Source of the DNA: Priapulus caudatus
Taxonomy: Eukaryota > Priapulida > Priapulimorpha > Priapulimorphida > Priapulidae
Length of the DNA stretch: 37,419 nt
Direction: 5' to 3'
NCBI RefSeq assembly: GCF_000485595.1
Contig: NW_014577350.1
Coordinates: 196,955 to 234,373 of the forward strand
Shown here: positions 3,238 through 35,066 of the stretch, piece by piece
Layout: every line of letters begins with the position of its first letter
Numbering within the stretch: position 1 is the stretch's first letter
The notes under the pieces: model-generated
What the model was told of the DNA's origin: nothing
The model's input: the letters and a program-made list of their open reading frames with translations, nothing else
The model's database searches: none
Translations under genes and position numbers: made by a program

Positions 3238-3279
3238 CAGGAGTTAATAAAGACAAATATTTGTCTTTATTAACTCATG
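3238..3279. mobile_element. 42-bp CAGGAG-family palindromic insertion
   Basis: A 42-bp palindrome with no spacer: 21 bases (CAGGAG, TTA slot, ATAAAGACAAAT) followed by their reverse complement with one mismatch (CATGAG against CAGGAG). It is flanked by ATGCTAT on the left and ATGGTAT on the right, a 7-bp direct repeat with one mismatch. The flanks and the shared terminus mark it as an inserted element, not a chance hairpin. The family name is mine. Confidence 0.85.
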
Positions 3280-3311
3280 ATGGTATGTGAACGTTACCGT
3301 ATGTGAAAGCA

Positions 3312-3339
<28 letters not shown>
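3312..3339 (+). repeat. 28-base poly-C run
   Basis: An uninterrupted run of 28 C between AAAGCA and TAATTATA. Such runs are prone to length error in sequencing. The C strand could form an i-motif and the G strand a quadruplex. Confidence 0.95.
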
Positions 3340-3342
<3 letters not shown>

Positions 3343-3396
3343 TTATATATATTATAATATATATATATACTAATATTATATTATATATAATATATA

Positions 3397-3438
3397 CAGG
3401 GAGTGAATTAATAATAGATCTAATATTATTCACCCCTG
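3397..3438. mobile_element. 42-bp CAGGAG-family hairpin insertion
   Basis: Starts CAGGGAGTGAATTAATAATA and ends TAATATTATTCACCCCTG, an imperfect inverted repeat. It is flanked on both sides by ATATATA, a perfect 7-bp direct repeat, though the target is low in complexity. It lies between the copies at 3238 and 3486. Confidence 0.7.
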
Positions 3439-3485
3439 ATATATAATCATACATTATATATTATTATATAATAGTTATATATATA

Positions 3486-3999
3486 CAGGAGCTAATTATG
3501 ATCATAACGATTTATAACATCATTCCTCGCGGGAAGTAGTTCAGATATTTTACCAGCGCAGCGTCGTTTGAAAAAACTGCGGGATTCAACATATATATAA
3601 AACAAGCATATCTCTATGTTATGTAAAATAGGGTGCAAACGTAACTTATTTCTAGGCGGGAGAATTTTCTGCAGTCGACTAGCTACGGCCGACAAGCCTG
3701 TGGCGCGCTTCCATTTCAACTAGCTTGGTGTGTGCGGCATTTTGGGCTCTAGCATGATCGCACCGACGGTAATAACGTGAATACCATGTCGTGCAAAAGT
3801 TACGAATTATGTTCAAACGAAGTAATGTACGCGGTTGTAATACTACCGCGAAGACTAGAATAGGACCAGTTGACAAAAGAAGCTCATGTTTGTATACATT
3901 TTGGTATTTTTCATTCACGATCGAAGCTGGTACGACAAAATGTAAGTGAAATCAGTCACCCAAATAGTGTCAAAACTCCTTTGTCATTATTAGCTCCTG
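3486..3999. mobile_element. 514-bp CAGGAG-family element (longest member)
   Basis: The left end reads CAGGAGCTAATTATGA and the right end, reverse-complemented, CAGGAGCTAATAATGACAAA. Both sides are flanked by ATATATA (3479-3485 and 4000-4006), a 7-bp direct repeat. The CTA slot matches between the ends. The interior holds two short minus-strand frames (75 and 79 residues) with no domain I recognise, and a small CGCGGT/ACCGCG hairpin at 3830-3850. It may be a longer, internally deleted ancestor of the tiny copies. The target is AT-repeat, so the duplication alone is weaker evidence than at complex sites. Confidence 0.6.
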
Positions 4000-4121
4000 A
4001 TATATACTGTAATGGGCCGCCATGGATACATTGCCACATTTTCAAACGCCGGGTGAGCGAGACACCTGAACTTACTTTTGCTTTATCGTGTTTAGTGGGC
4101 ATAATTTAAATAAAATGTAAT

Positions 4122-4142
4122 CAAGAGACCATTAATAGAAAA
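4122..4142 (+). mobile_element. Possible half copy of a CAGGAG-family terminus
   Basis: CAAGAGACCATTAATAGAAA closely resembles the arms at 9432 and 26177 (CARGAGTCCATAATRGAA). I see no matching inverted arm nearby, so it would be a one-ended relic. A chance match is possible. Confidence 0.35.
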
Positions 4143-4265
4143 AATCCTGATAACAGTGTTGAATATGAGTCCAATAAAAAGTGCTCATATCTGATTTTCT
4201 AGACCACCATGACCAAATGCGATAAGCACAGAATCCTAAGATACAGGTAATACAGCCAGTCGACC

Positions 4266-5070
4266 TTTTTAGTCTCACCTTGACATCGTCAGCGTGAGCT
4301 ATTGCCATGGTCGTCGTCCGTCGTAACGTCGTCCGTTCAAAAATTTGCATGGGTCAAGCGATAAACTCAAGACAACGGTTTGAACCTCACATGTTTGGAT
4401 ATTGAGTGATAGTTGTGTACTGCTATGCTCCGAGTATTAAACGTCTATTTTGGTAGCACACAGTCGACGTACTTTTCTGAGCCCGGAAAATTTGTTGGCA
4501 AAATATGGGAATTGCATTAGTCAGTTCATATTCAAATGATTTTGCTCATTTTGGCTATGTGAATGAATAAGGGTTAAAAATTATGCAAAATTAGGTAGGG
4601 TTTGGCAATTATATAGCATATTATATAGACACGCGGATGAACAAACAGTCTGTGGTGTCACACTCGTCTGGTTTGTGTTAACAGATTTCATTGACAATAT
4701 TTTAATGCAAAATTCTGCTATGAACATATTATGATTTATTATTATTATTTATTATTTTTAATTATTATTATAGAATGATTTATGCTAGAAAATATCATAA
4801 GCGGGTATAGCCCATCTACTGTCACAAATTGTGATTCATTTTGGTTTATAATTATTTATAATTATATATATATACATTATTCATCTATTTTCACATAAAA
4901 TTACACATATAATTAGCGAGAGTATATAATGGGAGTGGTCTCCCATATATACTCTGCGGTTTCTATAATGACGTCGATGGATTGCTCATACTTAAAACTG
5001 ACTTCTTCTCACTCACTCATTTGTGTCCTTTTTTGTGGTGAGCTATATAGTGTCATTGACACTTTCATTT
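4266..5070. repeat. Dispersed ~0.8 kb repeat, copy 1
   Basis: Aligns end to end with 14461-15240 in the same orientation, with many small differences. It opens with a CTCACCTTGACATCGTC motif, then GAGCTATTGCCATGG and GTCGTCCGTC, and ends GTGTCATTGACACTTTCATT. A TAGCTCACC/GGTGAGCTA pair near the ends hints at a non-autonomous DNA element, but I found no target duplication and the ends are approximate. Both copies carry the CAGGAG-type hairpin at the same internal place. Confidence 0.8.
4917..4957. mobile_element. Decayed CAGGAG-family hairpin inside repeat copy 1
   Basis: CGAGAGTATATAATGGGAG folds onto CTCCCATATATACTCTGCG. It sits at the same place as the hairpin at 15095 in the other copy of the host repeat, so the insertion predates that repeat's spread. 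No clear 7-bp duplication remains. Confidence 0.5.
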
Positions 5071-5606
5071 GTAAGAGAATTACAGTCATAAAACCTAGCG
5101 TCGAGCAGAGCACAGAACGAACAAAACGCCTCTTTTCTCTCCGGGGATTGACAAAAAATTGTTGCAAACTTGTCTGTCAATCGCTGGATGCCAAATGATT
5201 GGAGCAATTTGCGGGGCGGTAATTGGCAGTTAAAACAGGTTATCGCAATTGCATGCTGCGAGTTGCTCTCATCCACTATTTTATTTTATCTCACCTGACG
5301 TGGTCAGGCATAACTAGGAAATGCGAAAATTTCCAGTCCGCTATATGTACGTCCTTTCCAACATTAGTTGAAGCTGTCCAGCCAGCCTCTTTATATTTTG
5401 TGCTTATCTTTGGGATGTGCAGATCAAGAAGAAATGGCAGGCTGGAACGGGATGCCGTGAGTCAAAGAGAAATTATGCGATTCCCTGAGGATTTTAGCTT
5501 ACTATTTACTCGAGGAAATACACGCCTCTCTTTCTCTCCTTTCGATTTCTCTCTCCATATCTCCCTTTCTTCTACCCTTTCTCTGTGCCTGTCTGTCTTT
5601 CTCTCG
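5071..5606. other. Unassigned sequence grading into a pyrimidine-rich tract
   Basis: A plus-strand frame of 186 residues (5223-5783) crosses this stretch. About half of it is Leu-Thr-His-Ser repeat encoded by the neighbouring microsatellite, and the rest shows no domain I recognise. I do not call it a gene. Confidence 0.5.
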
Positions 5607-5713
5607 CTTACTCACTCACTCACTTACTCACTCACTCACACTCACTCACTCACTCACTCACTCACTCACTCACTCACTCACTCACTCACTCACTCACTCA
5701 CTCACTCACTCAC
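5607..5713 (+). repeat. (ACTC)n microsatellite
   Basis: About 26 units of CTCA, nearly uninterrupted apart from a few TTAC variants at the left edge, set in a longer CT-rich block. Confidence 0.95.
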
Positions 5714-6157
5714 CTCTCCCGCTCTCCTTCCCTCCCCCCTTCCTTCTTCCTGTTGCTCGCTCACGCTCTTATCCTGCCTCTAGACTAACTAACTTTATAA
5801 CTGACATTGTTTGACTAACCCTGGCTCATATATCTAAAAGCACTGATGCACCCATATCGAATCCCCCTGGCTTGATGTGAAGGTCGCATTACCGTAACAG
5901 CGGGCGGGCGCTCCTTTAGCCTAATGTACTATAGTGGCGTCCAGCGTTTGTGAGAGGGGCGGGCAGCTGCAAACGCCGTCTTTTGTCGTTTTTGTAGGAG
6001 CTAGATCGCTGCTCGCTCTGCAGTGTACGTCCTGTGCCTGCACCGTGTTAGCTCTACTGGTGTGTCCCCCCCTTTCGCTCCCGTTACAGGGGAAGCCCGG
6101 AAGAGTAGCAGTTAGGTCGCTGTAGCGTTAGCGAAGGGACTGCACCATTATAGAGCT
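5714..6157. other. Unassigned sequence
   Basis: CT-rich on the left, then GC-richer single-copy-looking DNA. The frame at 5934-6125 has no recognisable domain. Confidence 0.45.
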
Positions 6158-6165
6158 AGCGCCGT

Positions 6166-6622
6166 CACATGCACTTGGAACGTTTCAATGATAAAATGAT
6201 GGTAAATAAAATGTATGCTGGTAAGAATGATGGTAAGAAATGTATTTACTACCAAAGTCTTTTAATGTTTCTCCACTCTCTTTCACCTATTATTACTGAT
6301 AATAGGCTATTTCTGCCTTGCTCATCGATTGTAACGTAACCTTCGAACATTTGTAATTGTTTATGGATCAGGATTGAGTTATCCTGGCGTTAAGCCAGGC
6401 GCACACGCACGCTATGTTACGGTTTTAGTCGCCGGGTTTTCTCGCAGGAAATAATCAGTATAAATGCCGTTCAAATGCTCTTCTGCAACACACAAATACA
6501 CCCCACGCACGCCGGCCGCTGTGCACAAACAACAAGACTATTATATAAAGTAATCTACATTCTCTAGATTTCGTGTTTTTTTGCCATCATTTTGTTATAT
6601 GGAGACGTTCCAAGTGCATGTG
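6166..6622. mobile_element. hAT-type MITE, 457 bp, 8-bp target duplication
   Basis: The left end reads CACATGCACTTGGAACGT and the right end is its reverse complement. The pairing continues with indels to about 45 bp (both arms include ATGATGG). Both sides are flanked by AGCGCCGT (6158-6165 and 6623-6630), a perfect 8-bp duplication. An 8-bp duplication with CA...TG ends is typical of hAT elements. There is no transposase inside, so it is non-autonomous. Its tip resembles that of the element at 20294 (CACAGGCACTTGGGACAG), suggesting one related family. Confidence 0.88.
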
Positions 6623-6630
6623 AGCGCCGT

Positions 6631-7200
6631 ATATGACTGCGTACAGTACAACTTTATTATATTATTATAGTAATTTACACGATGCTATTCTAAATTAAAA
6701 CTAGTGTGAATTATTCATCGTCCCTGTGCGGCCTGTGCATTGGTCACGGCCAGTCTTCTCACGCCTAACTAGTGCTACCGCGTGATACAGGAGCGTGTAC
6801 AGGATTTGTAGCAGGGGGGGGGGTCTAACTGTAGCCCAAACTTGCGAGCACGCGAAGGGGGGTCCGGGGGGCCCTTCCCCAGAGAAATGTTGAAATTAGA
6901 CCCCCTCAGATGCGTTTTCTGCGCGAGCAGAGGGGGTCCGGACCCCCTGGACCCTCCCCCTGTACACGCCCATGTGATGGTGGCCGCAGGAGAGACCGGG
7001 AGGGGTGCAATGCTGCGTGTGTGCGATGTCTAGACTAGGGCCACTATTATAGGATCCAAAGTAATTACGAAGTATTATAATTAGTATAAAGTTTGTACAA
7101 CTTCTGATATATAGCGTAACTGGGACATGTAGCAGTTCGTATACATGTCTTTTCTTGATGCAGAGTTTGCAGTCCACTGGCAGCGGGATGAAGTTCCCCC
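6631..7200. other. Unassigned sequence with G-rich transposon-like motif
   Basis: No gene. At about 6850-6900 the string GGTCCGGGGGGCCCTTCCCC followed by AGAGAAATGTTGAAATT resembles the interior of the hAT-like element at 25430-25475. It may be a relic of the same kind of repeat. A run of 10 G lies near 6815. Confidence 0.45.
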
Positions 7201-7202
7201 CC

Positions 7203-7311
7203 CCTCAACTACACACGCTCGCACACGCACGCGCGCACAAACACACACACACGTGCATACGCGCACACACACGCACGCGCGCGCGCGCACACTGTCACAC
7301 GCACACACTCG

Positions 7312-7347
<36 letters not shown>

Positions 7348-7350
7348 TGT
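7203..7350. repeat. CA/CG then TGCG microsatellite
   Basis: CACA and CGCA units give way to (TGCG)n from about 7311. All is alternating purine-pyrimidine, with a pure CGCGCGCG stretch near 7275. Overlapping frames on both strands are repeat artefacts. Confidence 0.9.
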
Positions 7351-7475
7351 GTGCGGTCCGACGACTAACCCTAATATTTCTCGCAACTCGCAAATCAGGT
7401 CGACGATTCAAGTTGGAACAACACACGGGTAACTCCAATCACCGCTCTTTAAACTTAGCGCCTAGACCCAGTATG

Positions 7476-7742
7476 GCTGAGAGGATCTATGTTCCCCAGG
7501 GTACTGCCGGAACGTACCCTTGGTACGGTCCGGTATACCGGAACGTACCCTGGTACTATCTAATATGCCGGACCGTACCTCGCCTACTCCCCTAACGAGT
7601 CTAGGGAGTCGTCTACGCCTACTCTCTAACCCTAACCCTAACCCTAACCATATCAGATAGTTACCAGGGTACGTTCCGCTATACCGGAACGTACCCAGGG
7701 TACGTTCCGGTAGTACCCTGGGGGGGCATAGACCCTATGAGC
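7476..7742. mobile_element. MITE with internal telomeric repeats, copy 1 (9-bp duplication)
   Basis: The termini are GCTGAGAGGATCTATG and, reversed, GCTCATAGGGTCTATG, followed by CCGGAACGTACCC repeats on both arms. It is flanked by CCCAGTATG (7467-7475) and CCCAGTAAG (7743-7751), a 9-bp direct repeat with one mismatch, which suggests a Mutator-like origin. The interior carries four TAACCC-type units at 7626-7649. Copy 2 lies at 16615-16843 with its interior inverted. There is no transposase. Confidence 0.88.
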
Positions 7743-7794
7743 CCCAGTAAGCAGGTCACATTCTGAGCCTTGCCCGTCACTAATAATATTAAAC

Positions 7795-7865
7795 AGATGG
7801 GATTCGAACCCATCACCTCAAGAAGAATCGTTCGGCGCCTTACCCGCTGCGCTATTTTGGTTCGC
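7795..7865 (-). repeat. tRNA-like SINE head (A and B boxes, minus strand)
   Basis: Read on the minus strand, an A-box-like TAGCGCAGCGGGTAAGG (7839-7855) is followed by a B box GGGTTCGAATCCC (about 7801-7813), with spacing like a tRNA promoter. I could not fold a proper anticodon stem, and the acceptor arm does not pair, so it is more likely a tRNA-derived SINE than a functional tRNA. It lies about 50 bp right of the telomere-repeat MITE. Its tail is unclear. Confidence 0.6.
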
Positions 7866-8009
7866 TCAAATGATGTATTATGTATGTGCCCTATATGCAT
7901 ACATGGATGTGCGTGCGTGATTGGTCTAGCCACTGACGTCACACTGACGTACACTGACATCACGCGATCAGTCGGTGGCATAGAAACATATATCCACCTA
8001 CCCCGAACT

Positions 8010-8110
8010 AGCTCTAGAACTAAAGCCCTTCGTTCTGCCACATGCCTTCGCTCTGTCGCACGCATGTGGCAGAGCGAAGGGCTATTAGTTATATATAGTT
8101 CTATAGAGCT
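8010..8110. mobile_element. 101-bp inverted repeat, possible tiny TA-flanked MITE
   Basis: The arms include GCCCTTCGTTCTGCCACATG (8025-8044) and CATGTGGCAGAGCGAAGGGC (8063-8082). Pairing continues outward through TAGTT and AGAAC to AGCTCTA / TAGAGCT. TA lies at both edges and could be a target duplication, which would fit Tc1/mariner, but two bases are weak evidence. Confidence 0.6.
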
Positions 8111-8176
8111 AACCGCCAACAGCATGTTACTAGCATTCCCAAAGTTACTATAGCATGTCCTGGTTTTCGCGCACAG

Positions 8177-8201
8177 ACACGCACGCACGCACGCACGCAC
8201 G
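8177..8201 (+). repeat. (CACG)n microsatellite
   Basis: About six CACG/ACGC units, of the same type as the tetranucleotide at 7311-7350. Confidence 0.85.
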
Positions 8202-8413
8202 TAATGTTATCTTTTGTAGAGCCCGTTGAACCGGACAGTTCCTGGACCCTTTGCCAGCTATTTGCAATATTATATGGGTCCCGGACCTTGCCAGATAGTC
8301 ATAGTTTTAGGCGGCCTTGCCATAATTATATTTACATTCCCGCGCCTTGCCAGATATCCAAGTCATGCGGTCTGGCCAGATATTCGCAGTTTTGAGGTAT
8401 CCGAATTTGATGT
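8202..8413. repeat. Degenerate CCTTGCCAGATA tandem repeat
   Basis: CCTTGCCAGATA, CCTTGCCATAAT, CCTTGCCAGATA and TGGCCAGATA recur roughly every 28-60 bp from about 8240 to 8390, with CCGGACC beside some of them. The decay is heavy and the boundaries are uncertain. Confidence 0.4.
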
Positions 8414-8640
8414 CTGATTGTATAATTGTATAATTGTATACAATTGTATATACAACAGTACAATTATACAACGGTACAATTGTATAAAATTGTACAATTG
8501 TAAAATTGTAAAAATGTAAAAATTGTAAAATTGTACAATTGTACAACAGTGCAACAGCACAACAGTACAACAATACAATTACATATACAATTGTATAATT
8601 GTATACAATTGTATATACAACAGTAAATACAATTGTATAA
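8414..8640. repeat. AT-rich array of overlapping TTGTACAA / CAATTGTA palindromes
   Basis: Self-complementary words (TACAATTGTA, AATTGTACAATT, TATACAATTGTATA) recur about 20 times over 227 bp with variable spacers such as ACAGTAC. Either strand can fold on itself at many registers. Minus-strand Tyr/Cys/Asn-rich frames are repeat artefacts. Confidence 0.85.
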
Positions 8641-9424
8641 TTTATTTACCTGTTGTGCTACACTTGTACGCATGTCCCAACTGTTGGGAAGTGTGTCGCC
8701 CAATCAATTCACATAATAAATTTATTATGTAATATATTCCTAATATATTATAACGTCATAGAACAGAAGAGGGTACTATAATCAAGAGAGCTAGCTATAT
8801 AGTCCAGTTCTTACCATTGTCTAGTCCTACTAGCATGTGATTGCATTCATAAATTTTACATGGGTTATATATCAGCCTCGGCGAGGGATATTATTTCTAT
8901 GCAGAAATCTTTTACTATTATTTCCTGGGTCAGGGGAATTGACCAGCATTATCCACATAGTTCGTGGATTTTTTCCCAATTCGCAAAATGTTTTTACTTT
9001 GGTTCATAATATTTTCATGAAGACCCTGATGGGTATGTCATTCTACTATAACGTCGGAACCCTGACAGTAGGTATTTTTTGCTTGTCTGTCATGTTTGCT
9101 TCTTCCCTGGATGTGCGTACGTGCGCGCGTTGAGTGCGTGCATGCTTGTCCCCGTGCGTGCGTGCGTGTGTGTGCCTGCCTACCTCATATATGACAGCCC
9201 CATGAACGCGAGTAGAAACGTGAACATGTGACAGACGTGCTTTTATATTTAAAATATGTGGTTATTTAGTTTCATCAACGTGTTTTGTTGCTAGGTAGAC
9301 TGACAAATCCCAAAATAACCGCAAAACGTCGTGCTTTACTTATTTGCCATAATTTATTCGTGTTTTTATGGTGTCATCATCGCGGCAAATTTTCGCGTTC
9401 CTGTATATATCCACATGTGTACAC
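8641..9424. other. Unassigned sequence
   Basis: Contains an AATAAATTTATT palindrome near 8718 and a TGCG/TG-rich patch near 9113-9172. The plus-strand frame at 8837-9133 (98 residues) is hydrophobic and ends in the TGCG tract. I recognise no family in it. Confidence 0.45.
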
Positions 9425-9431
9425 ATTTTAT

Positions 9432-9498
9432 CAGGAGTCCATAATAGAAAATGATCATTTTAGAAAGAGTCTATTTTCTATTATGGATTGGACTCTTG
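9432..9498. mobile_element. 67-bp CAGGAG-family hairpin insertion
   Basis: Left arm CAGGAGTCCATAATAGAAAA. The right arm, reversed, reads CAAGAGTCCA, a 4-base repeat ATCC, then ATAATAGAAAAT. It is flanked by ATTTTAT on both sides (9425-9431 and 9499-9505), a perfect 7-bp duplication. The TCC slot is shared by both arms and by the copy at 26177. The centre is short and AT-rich. Confidence 0.88.
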
Positions 9499-9505
9499 AT
9501 TTTAT

Positions 9506-10086
9506 CTGTTTCCGTCTGTATTTTTTTCCTAGTATGGACATTTTCTGACAGAATAGATACATGTATAAAGTCCATAATAAAATGAAACACATACAGCCAC
9601 GCTTAACTGCACAGAAATCATGCCAATTCGTGAAGCAGTATATCAGGTTTGTTTTCAGCTGCTAAACAAAAAAACACGATCGAAATCAAAGTAATTTATG
9701 GTCTTTTATATAAAAAATATGGATTTAGAACAATACAGTCTGAAAACAATGTGCCGTGGTGGCTCATGCTATGATTATATACGTGATTGAAGTTCAAATA
9801 GCCAATGATTATCTACTAGATGCCTTGGAATATGTTGAACTGTGCCCGATATTTACCAGCTTATCGTGCAAAATGCAGTCAAAAGCCAAAACGCTCCCAC
9901 TTACATTCTAATAGCCACATATGTTTTTAACTGCACTGGTTCTCCACGAAGCGTTGAACTTAGACGAATTCAGTAAACAAGGTCTTCCTCCAATCTCTCA
10001 CAAAGCACAAAGTGATAAAAGTCCGAAGTAAAAGCGATCACTAGGTATTATAAAGATGTGTAAACCTAGTGTAGGCGTGTGATTCG
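9506..10086. other. Unassigned AT-rich sequence
   Basis: No gene recognised. AGTCCATAATAAAATG at about 9570-9585 echoes the hairpin-family arm next door but lacks the CARGAG tip. Confidence 0.45.
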
Positions 10087-10093
10087 CACTACC

Positions 10094-10389: not shown

Positions 10390-10396
10390 CACTACC

Positions 10397-10813: not shown

Positions 10814-10816
<3 letters not shown>

Positions 10817-11417: not shown

Positions 11418-11448
11418 CAAGAGCGTATAAGACCTTTATACGCCCTTG
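11418..11448. mobile_element. 31-bp CAGGAG-family insertion (shortest member)
   Basis: CAAGAGCGTATAA, a 4-base spacer GACC, then TTTATACGCCCTTG: two 13-14-base termini and almost nothing else. It is flanked by ATAATAC on both sides (11411-11417 and 11449-11455), a perfect 7-bp duplication in complex sequence. It shares the CGT slot with 12535, 19544 and 20546. Confidence 0.88.
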
Positions 11449-12534: not shown

Positions 12535-12613
12535 CGAGATCGAGCGTATAAAGAAGGATATATGATAAAGGATATAGGATAAATAGTATAATATCCTTCT
12601 TTATACGCTCTTG
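12535..12613. mobile_element. 79-bp CAGGAG-family hairpin insertion
   Basis: The arms share GAGCGTATAAAGAAGGATAT, exactly inverted at the right end. The left tip reads CGAGATCGAGCG instead of CAAGAGCG, as if it had a small repeat or insertion. It is flanked by ATATCAT on both sides (12528-12534 and 12614-12620), a perfect 7-bp duplication. A further CAAGAG follows directly after the right duplication at 12621. Confidence 0.82.
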
Positions 12614-14460: not shown

Positions 14461-15240
14461 TTTTTAGCTCACCTTGACATCGTCAAGCTGAGCTATTGCC
14501 ATGGGTCGTCGTCCGTCCGTACGTCAACATTTGGCTACGGTCAACGATAACTCAGGAACCGTTTGACCCACATGTTTGAAATTAAGTATAGTTGTTACTG
14601 CTATGCTCCCATATTAAACGTCCTATTTTGGAGCACACCAGTCGACGTACTTTCGAGCCACGGCAATTTTTTGGCAAAAAATGGGAATTGCCATTAGTCA
14701 GTATAGGTTCAACGGATTTTGCCTCGGTATGTGAATGAATAAGGGCTAAGGGTTTCGATATTTAAAAAAAAATTATGAAAATTAGGTAGGGTTTGGCAAT
14801 TATATAGCATATTATATAGACACGCAGATAACAAACAGTCTGTGGTGTCACACTCGTCTGGTTCGTTTTACAAGATTTCATAGACAATATCTTTAATGCA
14901 AAATTCCTGCTATGAACATATTATGATTTATACTATTATTATTATGATATAATGATTTATGCTAAGAAACATCAAAGCGTGGTATAGCACCATCTACCGT
15001 CACAAATTGTGATTTATTTTGGTTTATAAATTATTTATAGTTTATATATAATATTATTTATTATTTTCACATAAACAATTTCACATATAATTATCAAGAG
15101 TATATAATGAGAGTTTTCCCATATATACTCTTTGTTTCTATAATGTACGTCAATGGTTGCTCAATTAAAACTGACTTCTTCTCACTCACTCATTTGTGTC
15201 TTTTTTGTGGTAAGCTATAGTGTCATTGACACTTTCATTT
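14461..15240. repeat. Dispersed ~0.8 kb repeat, copy 2
   Basis: The same repeat as 4266-5070, same orientation, about 10 kb away, with substitutions and small indels throughout. It carries the better-preserved copy of the nested hairpin at 15095-15134. Confidence 0.8.
15095..15134. mobile_element. CAGGAG-family hairpin nested in repeat copy 2
   Basis: CAAGAGTATATAATGAGAG opposes TTCCCATATATACTCTTTG. The TAT slot is common to both arms. Left flank TAATTAT and right flank TTTCTAT match at only 4 of 7 positions, so the duplication is decayed or absent. Confidence 0.55.
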
Positions 15241-16614: not shown

Positions 16615-16843
16615 GCTCATAAGGTCTATGTCCCCCAGGATACCGCCGGAACGTACCCTGGGTACGGTCCGGTATACCGGAACGTACCCTGGTAACTATT
16701 TGATATGGTTAGGGTTAGGGTTAGGGAGTAGGCGTAGGCGACTCCCTAGACTCGTTAGTGGAGTAGGCGAGGTACGGCCCGGCATATAAGATAGTAACAG
16801 GGTATGTTCTGGCAGTACCATGGGGGACATAGACCCTCTCAGC
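16615..16843. mobile_element. MITE with internal telomeric repeats, copy 2 (9-bp duplication)
   Basis: The tips are GCTCATAAGGTCTATG and, reversed, GCTGAGAGGGTCTATG. It is flanked by CGTACTTTA on both sides (16606-16614 and 16844-16852), a perfect 9-bp duplication. The interior has GGTTAGGGTTAGGGTTAGGG at 16707-16726 and the same middle segment as copy 1 in opposite orientation. It is about 38 bp shorter than copy 1. Confidence 0.9.
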
Positions 16844-17560: not shown

Positions 17561-17598
17561 CAAGAGCAGATAAAGAAGGCCTTCTTTATCTGCTCTTG
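17561..17598. mobile_element. 38-bp perfect-palindrome insertion, CAGGAG family
   Basis: CAAGAGCAGATAAAGAAGG followed immediately by its exact reverse complement, 19 + 19 with no spacer and no mismatch. It is flanked by ATACCTA on both sides (17554-17560 and 17599-17605), a perfect 7-bp duplication. The CAG slot is unique to this copy. AAAGAAGG matches the copy at 12535. Confidence 0.92.
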
Positions 17599-18335: not shown

Positions 18336-18740
18336 GGGATTGTCTATATTCAGGCCGGTACGGGAGATTACGGTACGCATATATTTGCTAATATATTGAC
18401 TAATCGCGCGTCAATAAACTCAATATTCACAGAGAGTATAGCTAAGACATGTGTCTATAGGTATCTAGAATATATTATGCAAATGATCTCCCGTACCGGC
18501 TTGAATTCATATACTCTGTGAATATTGAGTTTATTGACGCACGATTAGTCAATATAGCAAATATATGCGCGCGGAAGTGAATTACAGATGATTAAATTTC
18601 TAAAATTCTAGATACCTATAGACACATGTCTTAGCTATACTCTCTGTGAATATTGAGTTTATTGACGCGCGATTAGTCAATATATTAGCAAATATATGCG
18701 TACCGTAATCTCCCGTACCGGCCTGAATATAGACACTCCC
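18336..18740. mobile_element. Compound foldback element with 9-bp duplication, 405 bp
   Basis: The tips are GGGATTGTCTATATTCAGG and, reversed, GGGAGTGTCTATATTCAGG. The arms (about 18336-18470 and 18602-18740) pair almost fully. A third partial segment at about 18486-18560 repeats the right-arm sense, including CTCCCGTACCGGC and ATTGAGTTTATTGACGC. It is flanked by ATTTCGATA on both sides (18327-18335 and 18741-18749), a perfect 9-bp duplication that fits a Mutator-like foldback. No transposase. Confidence 0.87.
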
Positions 18741-19543: not shown

Positions 19544-19603
19544 CAGGAGCGTATAATGACAAATACACATACGCCATACGCCATTTGTCATTATACGCTC
19601 CTG
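19544..19603. mobile_element. 60-bp CAGGAG-family hairpin (best-preserved termini)
   Basis: CAGGAGCGTATAATGACAAA plus T, an 18-base loop that contains CATACGC twice, then the exact inverse: 21-bp perfect termini. It is flanked by ATGTTAT on both sides (19537-19543 and 19604-19610), a perfect 7-bp duplication. I take this copy as the reference for the family terminus. Confidence 0.93.
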
Positions 19604-19610: not shown

Positions 19611-20285
19611 GTATATATATATAGTAGTCATGGTTTCAGTTTTATTTGCATTTACTAACAGAACGATTATGGAATGTTAGAATTTTTCTGTGTTTTAAAT
19701 TTTTTTAAGAAGGAAGGAACCAAATGGCTCTAGGGTCATAATATTTATAGAATACGGTCATTAGTATATAAATATGTTCCAGATTTAAACATATTCAGTC
19801 TAGATACGGACTAAAAATGTATTATAAGTGGCAACTTTTGTATGATTGCCGAATACCTACAATATCTGGTATAAATGACGGGAAGGAAGGCAACGATAGG
19901 ATCTAAATGATTGTTGATTATTTCGACGTCAAGATAATTTAAATTTATAATCATTTCTACAAAAAGTCGATGTTAATAATGAAATACGGCTGATTCACAT
20001 AGAGGTAGGCAGAAAAGCCTTACTGGTGTAGGCAGAAAAGCCTACACCAGAATATAATCCACACATTTACAGTAAGCTCTGTTTGCTTGTAGTCATCAAT
20101 GCTAGGCTAGGCGGAATATATAGGCACGCGTGCATATGCACTTCATGAAATCGTCGAACGCCACAGAAAGCAAGTACCCTCTGTATGGCTTCACACGAGT
20201 GCGAAGAAACTCATCATAACAATGGTAGAATGCCATCGCTGTTCAGGTTTGTTTGGTTCGACACGTGAAACTCGTTGCCAAAGGG
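19611..20285. other. Unassigned AT-rich sequence
   Basis: No gene. It contains the small hairpin at 20023-20050 but no other element. Confidence 0.45.
20023..20050. repeat. 11-bp stem hairpin with tandem half copy
   Basis: CTGGTGTAGGC, loop AGAAAA, GCCTACACCAG. The core AGGCAGAAAAGCCT is repeated 23 bp upstream at 20007-20020. It is intrinsically stable, but its function is unknown. Confidence 0.7.
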
Positions 20286-20293
20286 GTCCTAGG

Positions 20294-20782
20294 CACAGGC
20301 ACTTGGGACAGAGTCAGTAAAAACTGAAAATAATATGAACACACATTCACAAATAGGCCCTACAGCTACTACCGTACCCCTCTGTTACAGTTCCACTGTT
20401 GCGTCACTGTATATCAACTTTCCTTCATAAAAACCGATGTAAAAACTAACGCCGAACGCTCCAGCACTCGCCACTGCGAGTGTGCTGTGACGCTATGATG
20501 ATAATATCTATATAGAGATATATATATAGAGATAGAGACGTAGATCAGGAGCGTATAATGACAAATTATCATCATAATTATCATCATAGCGTCACAGCAC
20601 ACTCGCAACGGCGAGTGCGGGAGCGTTCGGCGTTAGTTTTTACATCGGTTTTTATGAAGGAAAGTTGATATACAGTGTCGCAACAGTGGAACTGTAACCG
20701 AGGGGTACGGTAGTAGGGCCTATTTGTGAATGTGTGTTCATATTATTTTCAGTTTTTACTGACTCTGTCCCAAGTGCCTGCG
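20294..20782. mobile_element. hAT-type foldback MITE, 489 bp, 8-bp duplication
   Basis: Arms of about 215 bp (about 20294-20510 and 20567-20782) are near-perfect inverses, starting CACAGGCACTTGGGACAG on the left and CGCAGGCACTTGGGACAG reversed on the right. It is flanked by GTCCTAGG on both sides (20286-20293 and 20783-20790), a perfect 8-bp duplication. The tip resembles the hAT MITE at 6166. The loop holds GATA-rich repeats and a one-ended CAGGAG terminus at 20546. Confidence 0.9.
20546..20566 (+). mobile_element. One-ended CAGGAG-family terminus in foldback loop
   Basis: CAGGAGCGTATAATGACAAA plus T is identical to the 21-base terminus at 19544, but no inverse copy follows; TATCATCATAATTATC comes next. 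It sits in the loop of the hAT foldback, so a copy either inserted there and lost one end or was captured with the loop. Confidence 0.75.
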
Positions 20783-20790
20783 GTCCTAGG

Positions 20791-26176: not shown

Positions 26177-26275
26177 CAAGAGTCCATAATGGAAAACGTA
26201 TTATCTTTAATTTTAAATTTATTTTTTATTAAATTTACTATTTTTATTACATTTATCTTCTATTATGGATTCTTG
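26177..26275. mobile_element. 99-bp CAGGAG-family insertion
   Basis: Left arm CAAGAGTCCATAATGGAA. Right arm reversed CAAGAATCCATAATAGAA (16 of 18 match). It is flanked by GTTATAT on both sides (26170-26176 and 26276-26282), a perfect 7-bp duplication. The interior is about 63 bp of A/T-rich sequence. It shares the TCC slot with the copy at 9432. Confidence 0.85.
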
Positions 26276-26543: not shown

Positions 26544-26885
26544 TTATTATGACCAGTAATAACATTAAAGTTGGAAACATTCCTAATGGAGTATCACTTA
26601 ATTGTAAGAGCAATAATTAACATTATATCTTTAATGCGTCTGGTGAGACGCGTTGAGATTTCAGGATCTTCGCAGCACGGGTCATTAAATCAGTCTATCA
26701 AAGACTCGCGAGATTTAGAATGTAGAATTATAATAAATTGATTCGCCGAGAGATGTCGACTTTGATGTTTCTCGGTGATTGCAACTCGGCTATTTCTGCA
26801 GTGTGTGAATGAATATTCCGAGAGAGACATAATCGAGAAGGTGTTATCGACGCAGCTGTGACGCAACACGGTTGTTGCTGACGTT

Positions 26886-27770
26886 ACCTGCCTGCTGTCT
26901 TTCTATCTGCTTTCTACCTGCCTCCTGCCTACCTGCCTCCTGCCTGCTTTCTACCTGCCTCCTGCCTACCTACCTCCCTCCTGCCTACCTGCCTGCTGCC
27001 TCCTGCCTACCTACCTGCCTCCTGCCTACCTACCTGCCTCCTGCCTGCTTTCTACCTGCCTCCTGCCTGCTTTCTACCTGCCTCCTGCCTACCTACCTCC
27101 CTCCTGCCTACCTGCCTGCTGCCTACCTGCCTGCTTTCTACCTGCCTGCTTTCTACCTGCCTCCTGCCTACCTGCCTGCTGTCTACCTGCCTGCTGTCTA
27201 CCTGCTTACCTACCTGCTGCCTACCTGCCTGCTGCCTACCTGCCTACCTGCCTGCTGCCTATCTGCCTACCTGCCTGCTGCCTACCTGCCTGCATGCCTA
27301 CCTGCCTGCTGCTAGCGTGCCTACCTGCCCGGCTGCCTATCTGCCTACCTGCCTACCTGGCCTACCTGCCTGACTCTGTGCCCTAGCTGCCCTCCGCCCA
27401 TGCCCTATCTGCCTACCTGGCCTGCTGCCTAGTGCCCTGGCCTACCTTGCCTATCTGCCCTGCCCTGCCTGCTGCCTAGCTGCCTGCCTTACCTGCTGCC
27501 TACCTGCCTGCTGCCTACCTGCCTACCTGCCTGCTGTCTACCTGCTTACCTACCTGCTGCCTACCTGCTTACCTGCCTGCTGCCTACTGCCTACCTGCCT
27601 GCATGCCTACCTGCCTGCTTTCTGCCGGCCTGCATGCCTACCTGCCTGCTTTCTACCTGCCTGCTGCCTACATGTCTGCTGCCTACCTGCCTGCTGCCTA
27701 CCTGCCTACCTGCCTACCTGCCTACCTGCCTGCTGCCTAGCTGCCTGCCTACCTGCCTGCTGCTGCTGCT
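26886..27770 (+). repeat. CCTGCCTAC / CCTGCTG minisatellite array
   Basis: Words CCTGCCTACCTG, CCTGCTTTCTACCTG and CCTCCTGCC alternate for nearly 900 bp, with higher-order units of about 42 bp early on. Irregular inserted G and C bases appear from about 27310. The frame at 26872-27315 is an artefact (Leu-Pro-Ala-Cys-Tyr repeats). Confidence 0.93.
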
Positions 27771-28126
27771 GTCTGTGTACGTACGTCCTAGCACAATACT
27801 GTCTCTGCTGCTGTACTGCCGCTATCACTGCCACGGCAAAGGTACGACACTGTAGCTAACTGCTGCTCCGAGTAATACTGCGTATAATAGTGCTACTGAT
27901 ACCGCACACTACCGCTGCCCGGCTAATGCACCTGATATTGTTACGGCTACTGTTACTGCCACCGCTACTGCTACTGCTTCTACTGCTGTTACTGCAATAG
28001 CAATGGCTACTGCTACTCTCACTGCTACTCTCACTGCTACTACCACCGCTGCTGGTAAAGCTATTGCTGCTATTTTCCCTATTGCTGCTGCTGATTCACC
28101 TGCTGCTACTGCTACTTTTGTTGTGG

Positions 28127-28161
<35 letters not shown>

Positions 28162-28275
28162 ATTGTTGTTGTTGTTTTTGTTTGTTGTTGTTGCTGCTGC
28201 TGCTGCTGCTACTACTACTACTACAAATATTTCTATTGCTAGTTCTACTACTGCTGCTGCTGCTCCTCACACACA
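27771..28275 (+). repeat. CTG / CTACTG / GTT trinucleotide-rich block
   Basis: CTGCTACTG-like words, then (GTT)n at about 28121-28188, (CTG)n at 28192-28207 and (ACT)n to about 28224, then CTGCTGCTG again. Frames here encode Ala/Val or Leu homopolymers and are not genes. Confidence 0.9.
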
Positions 28276-29051
28276 CATAAAGTTTGTCTACAGAAACTAG
28301 TGTTGCCACAGGATGTACAGTAATACTCGAAGTCCTCTATAAACATATATGCCAGGCAAGCAATGGTAATATGAGAATCCAAATGTTTGCGATTGACATT
28401 AAATATTTGGTCGTACATGGATTGATGAAGTCTGTTATTATTTGAGCCATCTGTACTGAGTATGATGGTCTAATGGTCTGAGAAACATTCATCAAAATTG
28501 TCGCATAATTAGGTTAGTACATGTAGGATAACAACTGTTCGTGTTGGTTTATCTTCGTCCGTGCATGATGGTTTAGCGATTCATGAGATGTTTATTAGAT
28601 TGACGTTATTTCTGCGCACAGCTGATCCTGTTACGACGATAGCTTTATTTAATCGTGTTTGCTTAGTTTTTCGTTGCTATTTCTGCACGTGTTTATACAC
28701 GTATGACGTTAAACGTGGCGTACACTTAGGCGGTTTCCGCCCGTGCGTCGGTTGTAATGAGTTGCTGTTATTATCTAGGTACCTAGCCCGAGTTGCTGCC
28801 GATTTTGTTTCAATGTCAACACAGGGATCGGTAACTGTCATGGTTTGCCGCGCAGTGTGGTTCGAATATTACGCTGTATTTCGACCGGATCGATATTCAA
28901 ACGCTGATATATGTAAATAAAGAGAAACGGATAGAGTTCGAGCGCGTGTCTGTCACGAGCAGTCAGTTCCGACCGTGTGGATCACTCACTCCACAGGGCG
29001 TCTGCGGGTATTTTACGCGCCACGGGACTCCGTCGTACCATACATATGCCT

Positions 29052-29137
29052 CAGGGATGAATGAATCATGACAAATTTTTCATGGGATTCTTTTGTGAGA
29101 CATTTTTGTAGATTTTTTGTCGTAATTCACATCCCTG
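29052..29137. mobile_element. Diverged CAGGAG-family hairpin in duplication unit 1
   Basis: CAGGGATGAATGAATCATGA opposes a right arm that reads CAGGGATGTGAATTACGACA when reversed. Both contain the family's GACAAA word further in. Flanks ATATGCC and ATACGCA agree at 5 of 7 with a one-base shift. An older or separate subfamily. Confidence 0.45.
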
Positions 29138-29766
29138 ATACGCATTCATGGCCAGGCTGTTCTGGACACGCCGTACACGACGATTCCCGCTGCGCGTAGG
29201 CAGGCCGAGGGCCTCCGGGATGCGACGCTGTCAGGTGTACATGAATAGCGATCAGATTATCTCTATTCATGTATTCTCTGCATGCTATTGCTTCGTAAAT
29301 CGTGTAGTACAGGAGCGCTGAACGTCGCCGTAGGAGACGGTGTGGATGAATGCATAGCGTAGGAGATCGAGGGAGGCGAGTATTGTATAGGGATTGCTGT
29401 AGGAAGTGCAGAACACTGCTGTTGAGTGCTTACAGGGACACGTGAGAGCATTGTAGGGATGTAACAATTATATCTTATAAGCGAAGATGTCTGCCGGTGA
29501 GACGCGTTGAGATTTCAGGATCTTGCGCAGCACGGCGTCATAAATCTCATATCATGACTCGCAGATTTAGAATGTTAGAATTATAATAAATTGATTGCGC
29601 CGCAGAGAGTCTGTCGACTTTGATGTTTCTCCGGTGATTGCAACTCCGCGGCCTATGTCTGCAGCTGTGGGGCGCTAGGGTGAATGAATATTCCGAGAGA
29701 GACATAATCGAGAAGCGTGTTTATCGACGCAGCTGTGTGACGCAACGACGGTTGTTGCTGCACGTT

Positions 29767-30980
29767 ACCTGCCTGCCTGTCTTTCTATCTGCTTGCCTAC
29801 CTGCCTGCTTTCGTGACCTGCCTCCTGCCTATCCTACCTCCCTTCCTAGCCTACCTGCCTGCCTGCCTGCCTGCTACCTACCCCTCCTGCCCTACCTACT
29901 GCTCCTGCCTGCTTTTCTACTTGCCTCCTCCTGCTACCTGCCTGCTGCCTAGCCTGCCCCGCTTTTACCTGCCTCGCTGCCTACTGCCTGCTGCCTAGCC
30001 TACCTGCCTCCTCCTGCTTTCTACCTGCCTCCTGACCTACCTACCTCCCTCCTGCCTACCTGCGCTGCTTTCTACTGCTGCCTTTCTACCTGCCTCCTGC
30101 CTACCTGCTTGGCTGTCTACCTGCTTACCTACCTGGCTGCCTACCGGCCTGCTCTGCCGTACCTGCCCTTACCTGCCTGCCTGCTACTGCCTACCTGCCT
30201 GCTGCCTACTTTGCTGCCCTACCTGCTGCTGGACTACTGCCCTACCTTGCCTACCTGCCTACCTGCCGCCTGGCCTGCTAGCTAGCGTGCCTGGCGCTAC
30301 CTGCCTACTGCCTACCTGCCTGCTGCCTAGCGTGCCTACCTGCCGGCTGCCCTATCTGCGCTACTGCCCTACCTGGCCTACCTGCCTACCTCCTGCCTAG
30401 CTGCCTACCGCATGCCTCTGCCTACCTATGCTGCCTTGCCCTATACTAGCCTACTGCCCTGCCCTGCCTAGCTGCACTGTCTACCTGGCTACCCTCCCCA
30501 TGCCTACGCTGCTGCTGCCTTAAGCTTGCTTGCTACCTGCGCCTACCTGTCCCTACCTGCCCTACCTGCTGCTGCCCTAGCTTGGCCTGCCTCCGGCTGC
30601 CTATCCCTTGCCTGGCCACTGCCTAGCTGCTTCCTACCCTTACTGACACTCCGGCTGCCTATCTGCCTGCATTGCCACCTGCCCTTAGCTGCCTGCCTAC
30701 CTGCCTACCTGCCTACCTGCCTGCTTGCCTAGCTGCCTTACCTGCGGCTGCCTATCTTGCCTACTGCCTTGCTGCCTAGCTGCTGCCTACCTGCCCCTAC
30801 CTGCCTGTGCCTAGCTGCCGTGCCTACCCCTGCGCCTACCTGCCTGCGTTGCTATCTGCTAACCTGCCTGCTGCCCTAGCCTGCCTGCCTACCTGCCCTA
30901 CCTGCCTACCTGCCCTGCTGCCACAATGAGCTGCCTTACCTGCCGGCCTGCCTGTGCCTGCCTGCCTGCTGGCTGCTGCT
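29767..30980 (+). repeat. CCTGCCTAC array of unit 2, irregular
   Basis: Counterpart of 26886-27770, about 330 bp longer, with many broken words (CCTGCGCTG, CTGCCCTAC). Length and phase should not be trusted. Confidence 0.88.
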
Positions 30981-31510
30981 GTCTGTGTACGTACGTCCTA
31001 GCCACAATTACTGCTCTCTGCTGCCCTGTACTGCCGCTATCACTGCCACGCGCAAAGCGGTTACGACCACTGGTAGCTAACTGGCTGGCCTTCCGCAGTA
31101 ATATACTGCGTATAATAGTAGCTTACTGATACCGCACACGTACCGCCTGCCGGCTAATGCAACCTGATATTTGTTACGGCTACTGTTACCTGCACCGCCA
31201 CTGCTTACTGCCGATCTACTGCTGTGACTGCAATAGCAATGGCTACTGCTACTCTCACTGCTACTTCTCACTGCCCCTACTACACGCTGCTGGCTAAGCT
31301 ATTGCTGCCCTATTTTCCCTATTGCTGTTCTGCTGATTCACCTGCCTGCTACTGCTACTTTGTTGTGGTATGTTGTTGGTTGTTGTTGTGATTGTTGTTT
31401 TTGCTTTGTTGTTGTTGACTGCTGCCTGCTTGCTGACTACTACTACTACTACAAGATATTTCTATTGCTAGTTTCTACTACTGTGCTGCTGCTCCTCACA
31501 CACACAAAAG
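30981..31510 (+). repeat. Trinucleotide-rich block of unit 2
   Basis: Counterpart of 27771-28275. The GTT run is broken and shorter (TTGTTGGTTGTTGTTGTGATTG), and extra C bases interrupt CTG runs. Confidence 0.85.
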
Positions 31511-32295
31511 TTTGTTCTACAGAAATAGGTTGCCACAGGGATGTACAGTAAAATACTCGAAGTCCCTCTATAACACTATATATGCCCGGCAACGCAATAG
31601 TAATATGAAATCCAAATGTTTGGATGACATTAAATATTGCGTACGTACATGGATTGAATGAAGTCTGTTATTATTTGAGCATCTGTACTGAGTATGATGG
31701 TCTAATGGCTGAGAAAACACTTCATCACCAAATTGTCGCCATAATTAGGTTAGTTCATTAGCATACAACGTTCGTGTTTGGGTTTATCTTCGTCGTGCAA
31801 TGATGGTTTAGCTGATTCATTGAGAATGCTTTTATTAGATTGACGTTATTTCTGCGCCCAGCTGATCTGTTCCATAACTATATTAATTTCGTTTTGCTTA
31901 GTTTACTGTCTTTCGCACGTGTTTATACACGTATGCACGTTAAACGTGGCGTACATTTAGGCGGTTCCGCCGTGCGTCGGTGTGTAATGAGTTGCCTGTT
32001 ATTATCATGGGTACCTAAGCCCGAGTTGCTGCCGCATTGTTTCACAGTCAACATCAGGGCTCCGGTAACTGTCATGCGTTTGCCGCGCCAGTGTGGTTCG
32101 AATATTACGCTGTCATTTTCGACCGGATCGAATATTTCAACCTGCTGATATATGTAAATAAAGAGAAACGCGATAAGAGTTCTCGAGCGCGTTGTCTGTC
32201 ACGTAGCAGATCAGTCTCGACGTGTGCGATCAGCTCACTACAGCGTCGGGATTCTTACGCGCCACGGGTCTCCGTACGTACCATACATATGGCCT

Positions 32296-32377
32296 CAGGG
32301 ATGATATGAATCATGACAAATTTTTTGCGCGAGGTTGTAAACATTTGTAGATGTTTTTGTCGTAATTCACATCCCTG
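32296..32377. mobile_element. Diverged CAGGAG-family hairpin in duplication unit 2
   Basis: Duplicate of 29052-29137, with CAGGGATGATATGAATCATG at the left and CACATCCCTG at the right. It arose with the large duplication and is not an independent insertion. Confidence 0.45.
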
Positions 32378-32666
32378 ATACCGCATTCATGGCCAGGTGT
32401 TTTCTTTGCTGGACACGCCGTACACGACATTCCGGCTTGCGACGATAGGCAGGCGAGGGCCTCCGGAGGAACGCTGTCAGGTGCTACATGAACTAGCCGA
32501 TCAGATTATCTTAATTCATGTATTCTCTAGCCAATGCTTATTGCCCTTCGTAAATCGTGCTACCTACAGCGAGCGCTTGAACGGTCGCCGTAGGAAGCGC
32601 GCTTGTGGTGATATGCATTAGCGTAGAGAGATACGAGGGAGCGCGAGATTGTAGGGATTCGCTTGG

Positions 32667-32995
32667 TAGGAAGCTCGCAGAACACTGCTGTTGAGTGCTT
32701 ACAGGGACACGTGAGAGCATTGTAGGGATGTATGTAGGAAGTGTATAACACTGCTGCTGTGTGCTTACAGGAACACGTGAGAGTATTGTAGGATGGATGT
32801 AGGAAGTGTATACACTGCTGTTGTGTGCTTACAGGGACACGTAGAGGTATTGTAGGGATGGATGTAGCGAAAGAATGATAGAACGACTGCTGTTGCAGTG
32901 CTTACAGGGCACACGTGGAGTATATGTAGGGATGGATGTAGGAATCAAAAAAAAAAAATTATAGAACACTGCTGTTGTGTGCTTACAGGCGAGTA
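32667..32995 (+). repeat. ~65-72-bp minisatellite, about five units
   Basis: Each unit holds GTAGGAAG, AACACTGCTGTTG, TGTGCTTACAGG, GACACGTGAGAG and ATTGTAGGGATG. A single unit closes duplication unit 1 at about 29398-29463, while the array is expanded here. One unit contains a 12-A insert near 32948. Confidence 0.88.
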
Positions 32996-35000
32996 CGTCC
33001 AGCTACGACATGGCGCTGATGGGCGAGGCACACGGACTTCATCACGACCTATGCTTTAGCCAACCCGCACCTGCGCCTACGATCGTCAGTGGCTGCTGCG
33101 AGCGGTTCGCCAACCTACCTGAATCCACCCAAGCAGTTCACTCACAACTTTCCAGGTATGGCGGTACGGCGCCATGGCCTGCGCGCCTGCCGGCCATGGC
33201 CTGGCATGCCATCACAGCGCGGCTGCATGCGTGACCACACCGCCACCGAGTTTTTCCTCGCGCGGATGCATGCAGATTCCGGTTTGCGTCGCTGTATTTC
33301 GCACATTGTTTTTCCAATTGCTACGCCTTTTCTGTTGATCGCATATACCGCCACTTCGCCTGCAAGAGAGGAGGGATTGGCGGGCTGGGTTAAGTGTGTC
33401 GAAGAGGGTAATTTTTTTACAGTGGGTATTTTCCTTATCTAGCATTATGTGCAGGGATAGAGAAAGATGGGTTATACAATCTAGGTAGTTCGTACTTACG
33501 TAGTGTTCTGTGTGTTAAGGGTCGGGAACTGTTATAGCAAAGGGGAGAGTGACGGGCGAAGGTTGTATCAAGTAAGCCTCCTGCTTCATAATAAGATTTG
33601 CCGAGCACGAAATTCTGTGAAAATTGTATGCATTAATTTTTAATAACGTGTATATGGAATTCTTTATTACGGCAAAGGAGAACATCATTTGCGCTGGGTT
33701 AAATGAGGCATTACGTGTTGCGAAAATGTTTCAAGCCTTTGTTGTCACATCCATATGTAGCTAGCCGACAATTCATGTGCTTATTATGGCGTGCTGCCCG
33801 CACTTAAATTTTCTGTGATTCATCTTTATTTTTTTCACTATTTAAATCATTTATGCATGAACTTAAGACTTTTGTGCATATTTTGCGTTCTTAATTTTCT
33901 TCACCAATTAAAATGTAAGAATCGGAAATAATAGTAACATTAACAATTAAGCGATTTTACAGAAGGGATTTTTTGGAAGTCGTGCATTAAATGTTTCGAA
34001 AGACTAAATCGCTAAGCCTTCATTAGTTCAAACCCCACGCGCTGTATTTCATACGGCATGTTTAAAATGTTCAGTCGTTGCTTTAGCCTACTTATAGCAC
34101 AATGTCACTAAAACATCATGAGGCCATCGTAATTATCACAAGCAATTGATTCCGTAAATCCTAATTGCCACATTTGAAATCGAATAGCTGTTCATGCCAC
34201 CTTTTATATATCTCATCTGAACTGTCCGTGTGCCTTTTCAGAAACCTCGCTTGCTAAATTGTGTCTGTGTTTCAGAAGCCAAGATGAGTCCGCTGTTTCC
34301 ACTGACAGAAACTCATGAATAGCTCCGATTACTTGCGAGGAAAACCATATAGCGGAGAGAGACGTCCGTTCATTCCAAGCGGTAGGTGAAGCATGTCTTC
34401 ATTTCATCCGGGCACGGGTTACGCCGCGTGTGTGCGGATTTTCAGTCCTAATAATTCATCTAGCTTGCCGCAATCCTTGATGCCATTTTCGCAGGAAGCA
34501 TAACGCGGTGTACTGTGAATTATGTTAGAGCTAGAGGTAGAGATTCTCTAGGAGGCGCACGACGAGAGCTAGTTTATTGACGGTCGGAAGGCGAGTTTAA
34601 TTCGATTGCGGAATGTTATTACCACGGAACCTGCCTGACGGCAAGCCTAGATTACGTCTTGTTGCATATTATCCAACGCTGAAGGTGGGGCGGCGGGCGG
34701 GGGAATGAAGAGGAAATGGCCTGCCAATTCGACTCGAGAAGATTTGCAGAAGCTACAATCACACGATGTTCCCTTTTGCAGCTTTGACGGATGTGAGTGG
34801 AAGGTTGCACGGAGACAGATGCATTACACGATTTGACAAAATGTTCAAGAGCAAATCTTCAATGATATTTTAAAAAAGCTTAGATTCCTTCCGCCCGCCT
34901 ATACTATGTGGACATTGGCTCATTAGGGCGTAGCCTATCTATCCGTATTCCCGTAACCCTGAGGCCCGCAGCTGCTTTCACAGTAATGCCTACAGATGGA
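32996..35000. other. Unassigned sequence
   Basis: About 2 kb without bounded elements. Overlapping opposed frames at 32977-33445 carry no known domain. The right part (33450-34900) is AT-rich and looks single-copy. Confidence 0.4.
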
Positions 35001-35006
35001 TGATTC

Positions 35007-35066
35007 CAAGGAGTTAATGAGACAAATGGAAAGAATTTTGAAAGCATTTTGTCTTATTATCTCCTG
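35007..35066. mobile_element. 60-bp CAGGAG-family hairpin, partly decayed
   Basis: Left arm CAAGGAGTTAATGAGACAAA. Right arm reversed CAGGAGATAATAAGACAAAA. The right flank ATGATAT (after one extra C) and the left flank ATGATTC agree at 5 of 7. The arm is close to that at 3238 (GAGTTAATAAAGACAAA). Confidence 0.65.

Follow-up and report, generated by a model that had tools for sequence, protein, structure and literature searches.

In this work, we analyzed a group of short palindromic hairpins in a 37,419-bp stretch of the genome of the priapulid Priapulus caudatus (contig NW_014577350.1, positions 196,955 to 234,373 of the forward strand; G000:C290:196955-234373), hereafter the window. Apart from one 514-bp copy, the nine named sites carry palindromes of 31-99 bp made of two inverted termini and framed by 7-bp direct repeats. 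These short hairpins are, in our judgment, probably fossil excision scars of P/Galileo-like transposons cut with a stagger of about 20 nt, and the likeliest reading of the whole set is a natural collection of such scars and not a new class of terminus-only transposon. A sequence-only reading of the window had taken the hairpins themselves for a minimal mobile family. This is not supported: the hairpin arms stop some 20 nt into longer elements that share their tips and 7-bp duplications, and the longer loops, which differ between loci, are in part copies of arm sequence, as in induced P-element excision junctions.

According to the model we favor, a P-superfamily-like cut-and-paste transposon (Galileo-like, with long inverted repeats and a 7-bp, at times 8-bp, target duplication) would insert at RTAWTAY-like sites. 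On its departure, one strand would be cut at the tip of the element and the other about 20 nt inside, and each donor end would keep the duplication plus a single-stranded element tail of about 20 nt, presumably with 3' polarity. End joining, perhaps by a polymerase theta-like repair step, would then fuse the two tails directly, via microhomology or through filler that copies tail sequence. The product would read duplication, 20 nt, optional filler, 20 nt inverted, duplication, that is, a palindrome of about 40 bp with none of the element sequence beyond nt ~20, for which reason it should be immobile. The long element would be what was inserted, and the hairpin the remainder after its exit.

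Hairpins and their target duplications

Repeats of 7 bp flank all nine named sites of the window, eight of them perfectly and one (3238) in six of seven positions. The sites are listed below together with a tenth, doubtful one; only the 514-bp copy is assigned a strand.

3238..3279: 42-bp scar-like hairpin; arms of 20+20 nt, 2-nt filler; flanks ATGCTAT / ATGGTAT (6/7)
3397..3438: 42-bp hairpin; tips CAGGGAG and CACCCCTG; both flanks ATATATA (7/7), in a low-complexity AT repeat
3486..3999, + strand: 514-bp copy of a ~900-1,000-bp parent, internally deleted; flanks ATATATA (7/7)
9432..9498: 67-bp hairpin; ~27-nt filler; flanks ATTTTAT (7/7)
11418..11448: 31-bp hairpin, the shortest; flanks ATAATAC (7/7)
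12535..12613: 79-bp hairpin; damaged left tip, ~35-nt filler; flanks ATATCAT (7/7)
17561..17598: 38-bp perfect hairpin; arms of 19+19 nt, no filler; flanks ATACCTA (7/7)
19544..19603: 60-bp hairpin; arms of 20+20 nt, 20-nt filler; flanks ATGTTAT (7/7)
26177..26275: 99-bp hairpin; long AT-rich filler; flanks GTTATAT (7/7)
35007..35066: 60-bp imperfect hairpin of similar kind; exact duplication absent by eye; doubtful member

When the left and right flanks of the nine sites were crossed, 6 of 72 mismatched pairings reached 6/7, and among 20,000 flank permutations the maximum was seven of nine sites at 6/7 or better (reached 13 times), against nine of nine in the real window. A narrower scan recovered five hairpins, all with a duplication of 6/7 or better; applied to 7,807 dinucleotide shuffles of the window, the same scan yielded 11 qualifying hairpins summed over all shuffles. 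The repeats described at the nine sites by the sequence-only reading are borne out far above chance, and they support its claim that the copies were inserted and not grown in place; its description of them as two joined termini also held. The tips that it gave, CARGAG and the inverse, stand as the general pattern but not at five sites: the left tip of 12535 is CGAGATCGAG, 3397 has the tips listed above, and the right tips read ATTCTTG at 26177 (one base off), CTCATG at 3238 and CCCTTG at 11418. Taken alone, the ATATATA duplications at 3397 and 3486 are weak, with AT-rich repeats around them.

We further searched the 385-Mb assembly (2,952 contigs). The pattern CAGGAGNNNATAA-N(4-34)-TTATNNNCTCYTG gave 1,425 forward and 1,434 reverse matches, two counts that overlap in kind as near-palindromic hairpins match on both strands, whereas the backward-read control gave 0 and 1. 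A version of the pattern for hairpins of 46-75 bp gave 593 and 601 matches (control, 0 and 1). Forty genome copies were then inspected, taken from the first 41 pattern matches listed, regardless of their flanks and leaving out C4:1187628. Exact duplications of 7 bp were found at 23 and of 8 bp at seven, six copies were one base off 7 bp and four had none. The duplication is thus exact in 30 and present in 36 of the 40 with one mismatch allowed, whereas crossed flanks matched exactly in 24 of 1,560 pairs; hairpins lacking the 7-bp repeat, whose prevalence in the genome the sequence-only reading had named as the finding that would tell against it, make up four of the 40. The consensus of the 35 sites picked for exact 7-bp duplications is ATAWTAT; 97% of them carry T at the second position and 86% carry A at the sixth.

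A common scan of the window and of 20 blindly picked 10-kb stretches returned 11 hits, five in the window and six in the stretches, four of the latter being of a CAGCAG type without duplication and two being true hairpins with perfect 7-bp duplications. With five hairpins in 37 kb against two in 20 x 10 kb, the window is denser than the genome average. All nine named copies lie within 23 kb (3231-26282), denser than the sampled genome stretches, and P elements are described in a review passage as jumping locally (PMC7776569). In a pattern scan of viral contigs, matches occurred in eight contigs, with a 7-bp duplication at none by eye in the printed flanks.

Besides the listed sites, a lone half-site was seen at 20546, where the tip half CAGGAGCGTATAATGACAAAT lies in the loop of a long palindrome (20280-20790) and the partner half is absent by eye. 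A related-looking hairpin, GAGTATATAATG...CATATATACTC, occurs at 4914-4960 and 15095-15135, inside two copies of a dispersed repeat (4270-5060 and 14470-15230), with the target duplication absent by eye.

Parent elements, arm ends and filler

Longer elements with the same tips as the hairpins are present in the genome. The search for them returned 27 loci covering 23 places, with both ends in 14 and no usable pair in nine. These 14 two-ended elements, family A, measure 899-1,250 bp and have inverted repeats of 252-297 bp in 13 cases and of 141 bp in one. Exact 7-bp duplications frame eight of them; L014/L019 and L021 have none, L025 matches in 7/8 by eye, and L023, L032 and L035 are inside AT repeats, where duplication length cannot be read. 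A 1,246-bp relative (L037) has the duplication ATACAAT. A second family, B, with ends like CARGAGCRTATAAAGAAGGAGAGCGTACAACGG, is represented by a 770-bp element (L056) with 233-bp repeats, an ATAATAT duplication and a longest stop-free frame of 105 aa, and by a 1,747-bp member (L084, contig C82) that has family B ends and the exact 7-bp duplication GTATGAT on both sides, and in which no frame was recognized as transposase-like. The family B end has at least 41 matches (40 of 932 first-look candidates scored). Some short hairpins share tip variants with these long parents. By eye on the translation, a cadherin/EGF-type frame adjoins one element end in L040.

The 514-bp copy at 3486 has at least 69 genome matches (40 of 159 candidates scored). 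It joins 16 nt of the left end to parent nt ~404-911 and is 81% identical to the reversed L010 element. PMC2895639 describes one-sided copying from the other end, then joining, as a route taken after P excision; that the 514-bp copy fits such a one-sided variant is only a suggestion, drawn from a single example in AT-rich sequence.

For 22 hairpins, a parent with the matching tip was available, and both arms were walked along it. These comprise 18 of 51 listed genome hairpins, one hairpin in L042, and those at 3238 (parent A1), 17561 (family B) and 19544 (parent A2) in the window; the other 33 listed hairpins and six of the window's nine fall outside the scoring, among them 3397 and 9432, for whose tips no parent was seen, 11418, 26177, and 12535 because of its damaged left tip. 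Of the 44 arms, 26 end at nt 20, six at 19, four at 18, three at 21, and one each at 13, 15, 16, 17 and 22, both arms of 3238 diverging from A1 at nt 20. Thus, 43 of 44 arms end at or before nt 21, although the parent repeats continue for 141-297 bp, and the hairpin pattern, which fixes the first 13 nt, would admit arms of up to 30 nt. Furthermore, a motif common to the parents just inside nt 20 (GGAGTNNGACA.., AGAGCGTACAACG) is absent from the hairpins. P-superfamily elements have internal transposase-binding sites close to both ends, for which this motif would be a candidate. Clustering of the arm ends at one point argues for a staggered cut, since a deletion process would have no reason for one stop, and from the position of these ends the stagger would be about 20 nt.

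The sequence between the arms differs from locus to locus. Among the 51 listed hairpins, 46 sequences are distinct; three occur more than once (in 4, 2 and 2 copies), with hardly any filler or none. A further set of 46 longer hairpins, drawn from the 46-75-bp pattern, sharing 10 members with the 51 and leaving out six listed places, has 46 distinct fillers. These fillers resemble their own arms: the mean longest match is 7.46 nt, compared with 4.84 nt for the fillers after shuffling (maximum over 1,000 shuffles, 5.43), single-base shuffling being a mild control for AT-rich filler, and with 5.30 nt against the arms of other subfamilies. In the window, the filler of 19544 contains repeats of the arm-derived ATACGC. 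A 132-bp hairpin in L041 (7601-7732), framed by GTAATAT duplications, has a loop in which AATAGRGRTAATAG-like copies of its arm follow one another, and looks like an extreme case of templated filler.

Comparison with known transposons and alternative explanations

P transposase leaves 17-nt 3' tails, a stagger called unusual in a review passage (PMC7776569). In Drosophila, the end-joining products of P excision given in Table 1 of Chan, Yu and McVey 2010 (PMC2895639) consist of the 8-bp duplication, the 17-nt tail in full or in part, a junction with microhomology or a 1-15-nt insert (some marked as templated), the other tail and the duplication; the table also has products that lost most of both tails. 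The hairpins described herein share this layout of duplication, tail, microhomology or insert, inverted tail and duplication, and their anatomy appears to match the long-tail excision of the P superfamily. They differ in the apparent tail length (about 20 nt instead of 17) and in a duplication of mostly 7 instead of 8 bp. Besides, the P junctions tabulated there are laboratory events at one site, whereas the hairpins are a natural genome-wide set.

The Drosophila element Galileo, a member of the P superfamily, is described as having 7- or 8-bp duplications with the consensus GTATTAC and long foldback-like repeats (PMC4168063). The elements studied here resemble it in their duplications (7 bp at 23 and 8 bp at seven of the 40 hairpins, 7 bp at eight long elements), in their long inverted repeats (in family A, 252-297 bp in 13 elements and 141 bp in the fourteenth; in L056, 233 bp) and in their AT-rich targets. 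GTATTAC and ATAWTAT are similar but not identical, GTATTAC being the duplication at one of the 35 sites (L010), and the comparison covers features other than the tip sequences. The placement of Galileo in the P superfamily rests on its transposase, whereas that of the elements here would rest on duplications, targets and inverted repeats.

As for the transposase itself, that of the P superfamily combines THAP, HTH and RNase H domains, the last with a GTP-binding insertion. The genome contains 14 matches to PF12017 (P transposase). One of them, L057 (C1414:67800-73300), holds an 827-aa open frame that combines HTH, RNase H, GTP-binding and THAP9-like domains and matches the Drosophila P transposase 6p5a (E 2.8e-23); two relatives, L078 and L079, are broken. 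L057 may represent a P element from a different lineage or, alternatively, a gene that has been domesticated. Altogether, that the hairpins arose by a process working like P excision is well supported, and that their parents are P elements is likely but unproven.

Several observations weigh against an origin by excision of P/Galileo-like transposons. At the three of 14 PF12017 loci examined (C1414, C1591 and C1247; two with extra flanks), CARGAG ends with a duplication were absent and no transposase gene was found between hairpin-type ends; compared with the parents, these loci gave weak matches only (22-47 bp, E 0.08-0.29). Among the long elements found here, no parent was seen for the commonest scar variant, CAGGAGTAGATAATAGGG. 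The arms were scored in only 22 hairpins, the stagger deduced from them is about 20 nt versus 17 nt in P, and four of the 40 genome copies lack a duplication. When 14 fillers were tested one by one, just two reached p < 0.05, so the evidence for templating comes from pooling. Amplification would also account for the identical filler-free 40-mers shared by several sites (4, 2 and 2 copies among 51), and the two target halves did not pair significantly beyond what composition predicts (p 0.10, 35 sites). Finally, hAT families with 7-bp duplications are implied by Repbase text (PMC4455052).

This last point, together with the failure to find a P transposase with these ends at the three loci, can be cited for a reading in which the joins are indeed scar-like but were left by a transposase from outside the P superfamily, hAT or an undescribed group, making ~20-nt staggered cuts and constituting a second long-stagger group. 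We regard this as unlikely. We know of no long-stagger cut-and-paste transposase other than that of P. Galileo agrees with the present elements in duplication length, target consensus and the possession of long repeats, and the 17-nt stagger of P is itself singled out as unusual in the review passage (PMC7776569). If such a non-P long-stagger group existed, it would be recognizable in any genome as ~40-bp terminus-only palindromes between 7-bp duplications. Membership of the hAT superfamily would show in a hAT transposase and, usually, an 8-bp duplication.

The view of the sequence-only reading, that palindromes of ~40 bp are moved by a transposase as minimal miniature inverted-repeat transposable elements (MITEs), each insertion making its own 7-bp duplication, accounts for the exact duplications at most sites, the high copy number and the identical 40-mers at a few sites. 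The long parents (~770-1,250 bp) do resemble MITEs, having inverted repeats, duplications and many similar copies and being non-coding where checked. The 31-99-bp hairpins differ from MITEs in lacking a common interior and in not looking amplified: 46 of 51 sequences and all 46 longer fillers are distinct, the fillers are arm-templated, recurrence is confined to joins with little or no filler, and the parent-shared sequence just inside nt 20 is missing. C. elegans palindromic repeats in Repbase and foldback elements are, like the hairpins, nearly all inverted repeat. Given the stiffness of DNA, a 40-bp duplex would be too short to loop for end pairing. Mobility of the hairpins themselves is thus improbable. 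Less probable still are ordinary internal deletions of long elements with random break points, for instance by aborted gap repair. The 514-bp copy fits such an origin, but random deletion predicts a spread of arm ends and not the clustering at nt 20 (26 of 44), and we rejected it for the short class on this ground.

A window stretch at ~29470-32990 carries many small indels relative to ~26600-29460, as if an uncorrected read or haplotype had been joined in, and by eye seems to be a second, poorly corrected copy of it. This error-rich stretch could suggest that the hairpins are chance or assembly artefacts, to which we give almost no credence: none of the nine sites lies inside it, and chance and artefact were both rejected on the flank tests in the window, the genome pattern counts (1,425 forward matches versus 0 and 1 in the control) and the duplications at 36 of 40 copies.

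Neighboring features and biological meaning

Other transposon families are present in the window. Inverted-repeat elements at 18336-18740 and 16615-16843 have exact 9-bp flank repeats (ATTTCGATA and CGTACTTTA, respectively). Long near-perfect inverted repeats occur at 524-1106 and 6165-6623. Rfam and tRNA scans of the window gave no matches.

Excision scars of this kind are known singly, from fly genetics; what is new here is their occurrence in such number in one genome and the longer apparent stagger. By title, no genome-wide description of such scars was found in the open-licence library searched. If the hairpins of P. caudatus are excision scars of P/Galileo-like transposons, an ordinary genome assembly would document a very large number of natural transposon excisions. 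The scars would record the cut position (~20 nt) and the target motif of an unseen transposase, as well as the repair of germline breaks, with templated filler such as is ascribed to polymerase theta, and tip variants without seen parents may record lost families. In addition, repeat libraries may contain short palindromic repeats that are scars and not mobile elements, and we offer an arm length fixed at the stagger together with locus-specific filler as a criterion by which such scars would be recognized.

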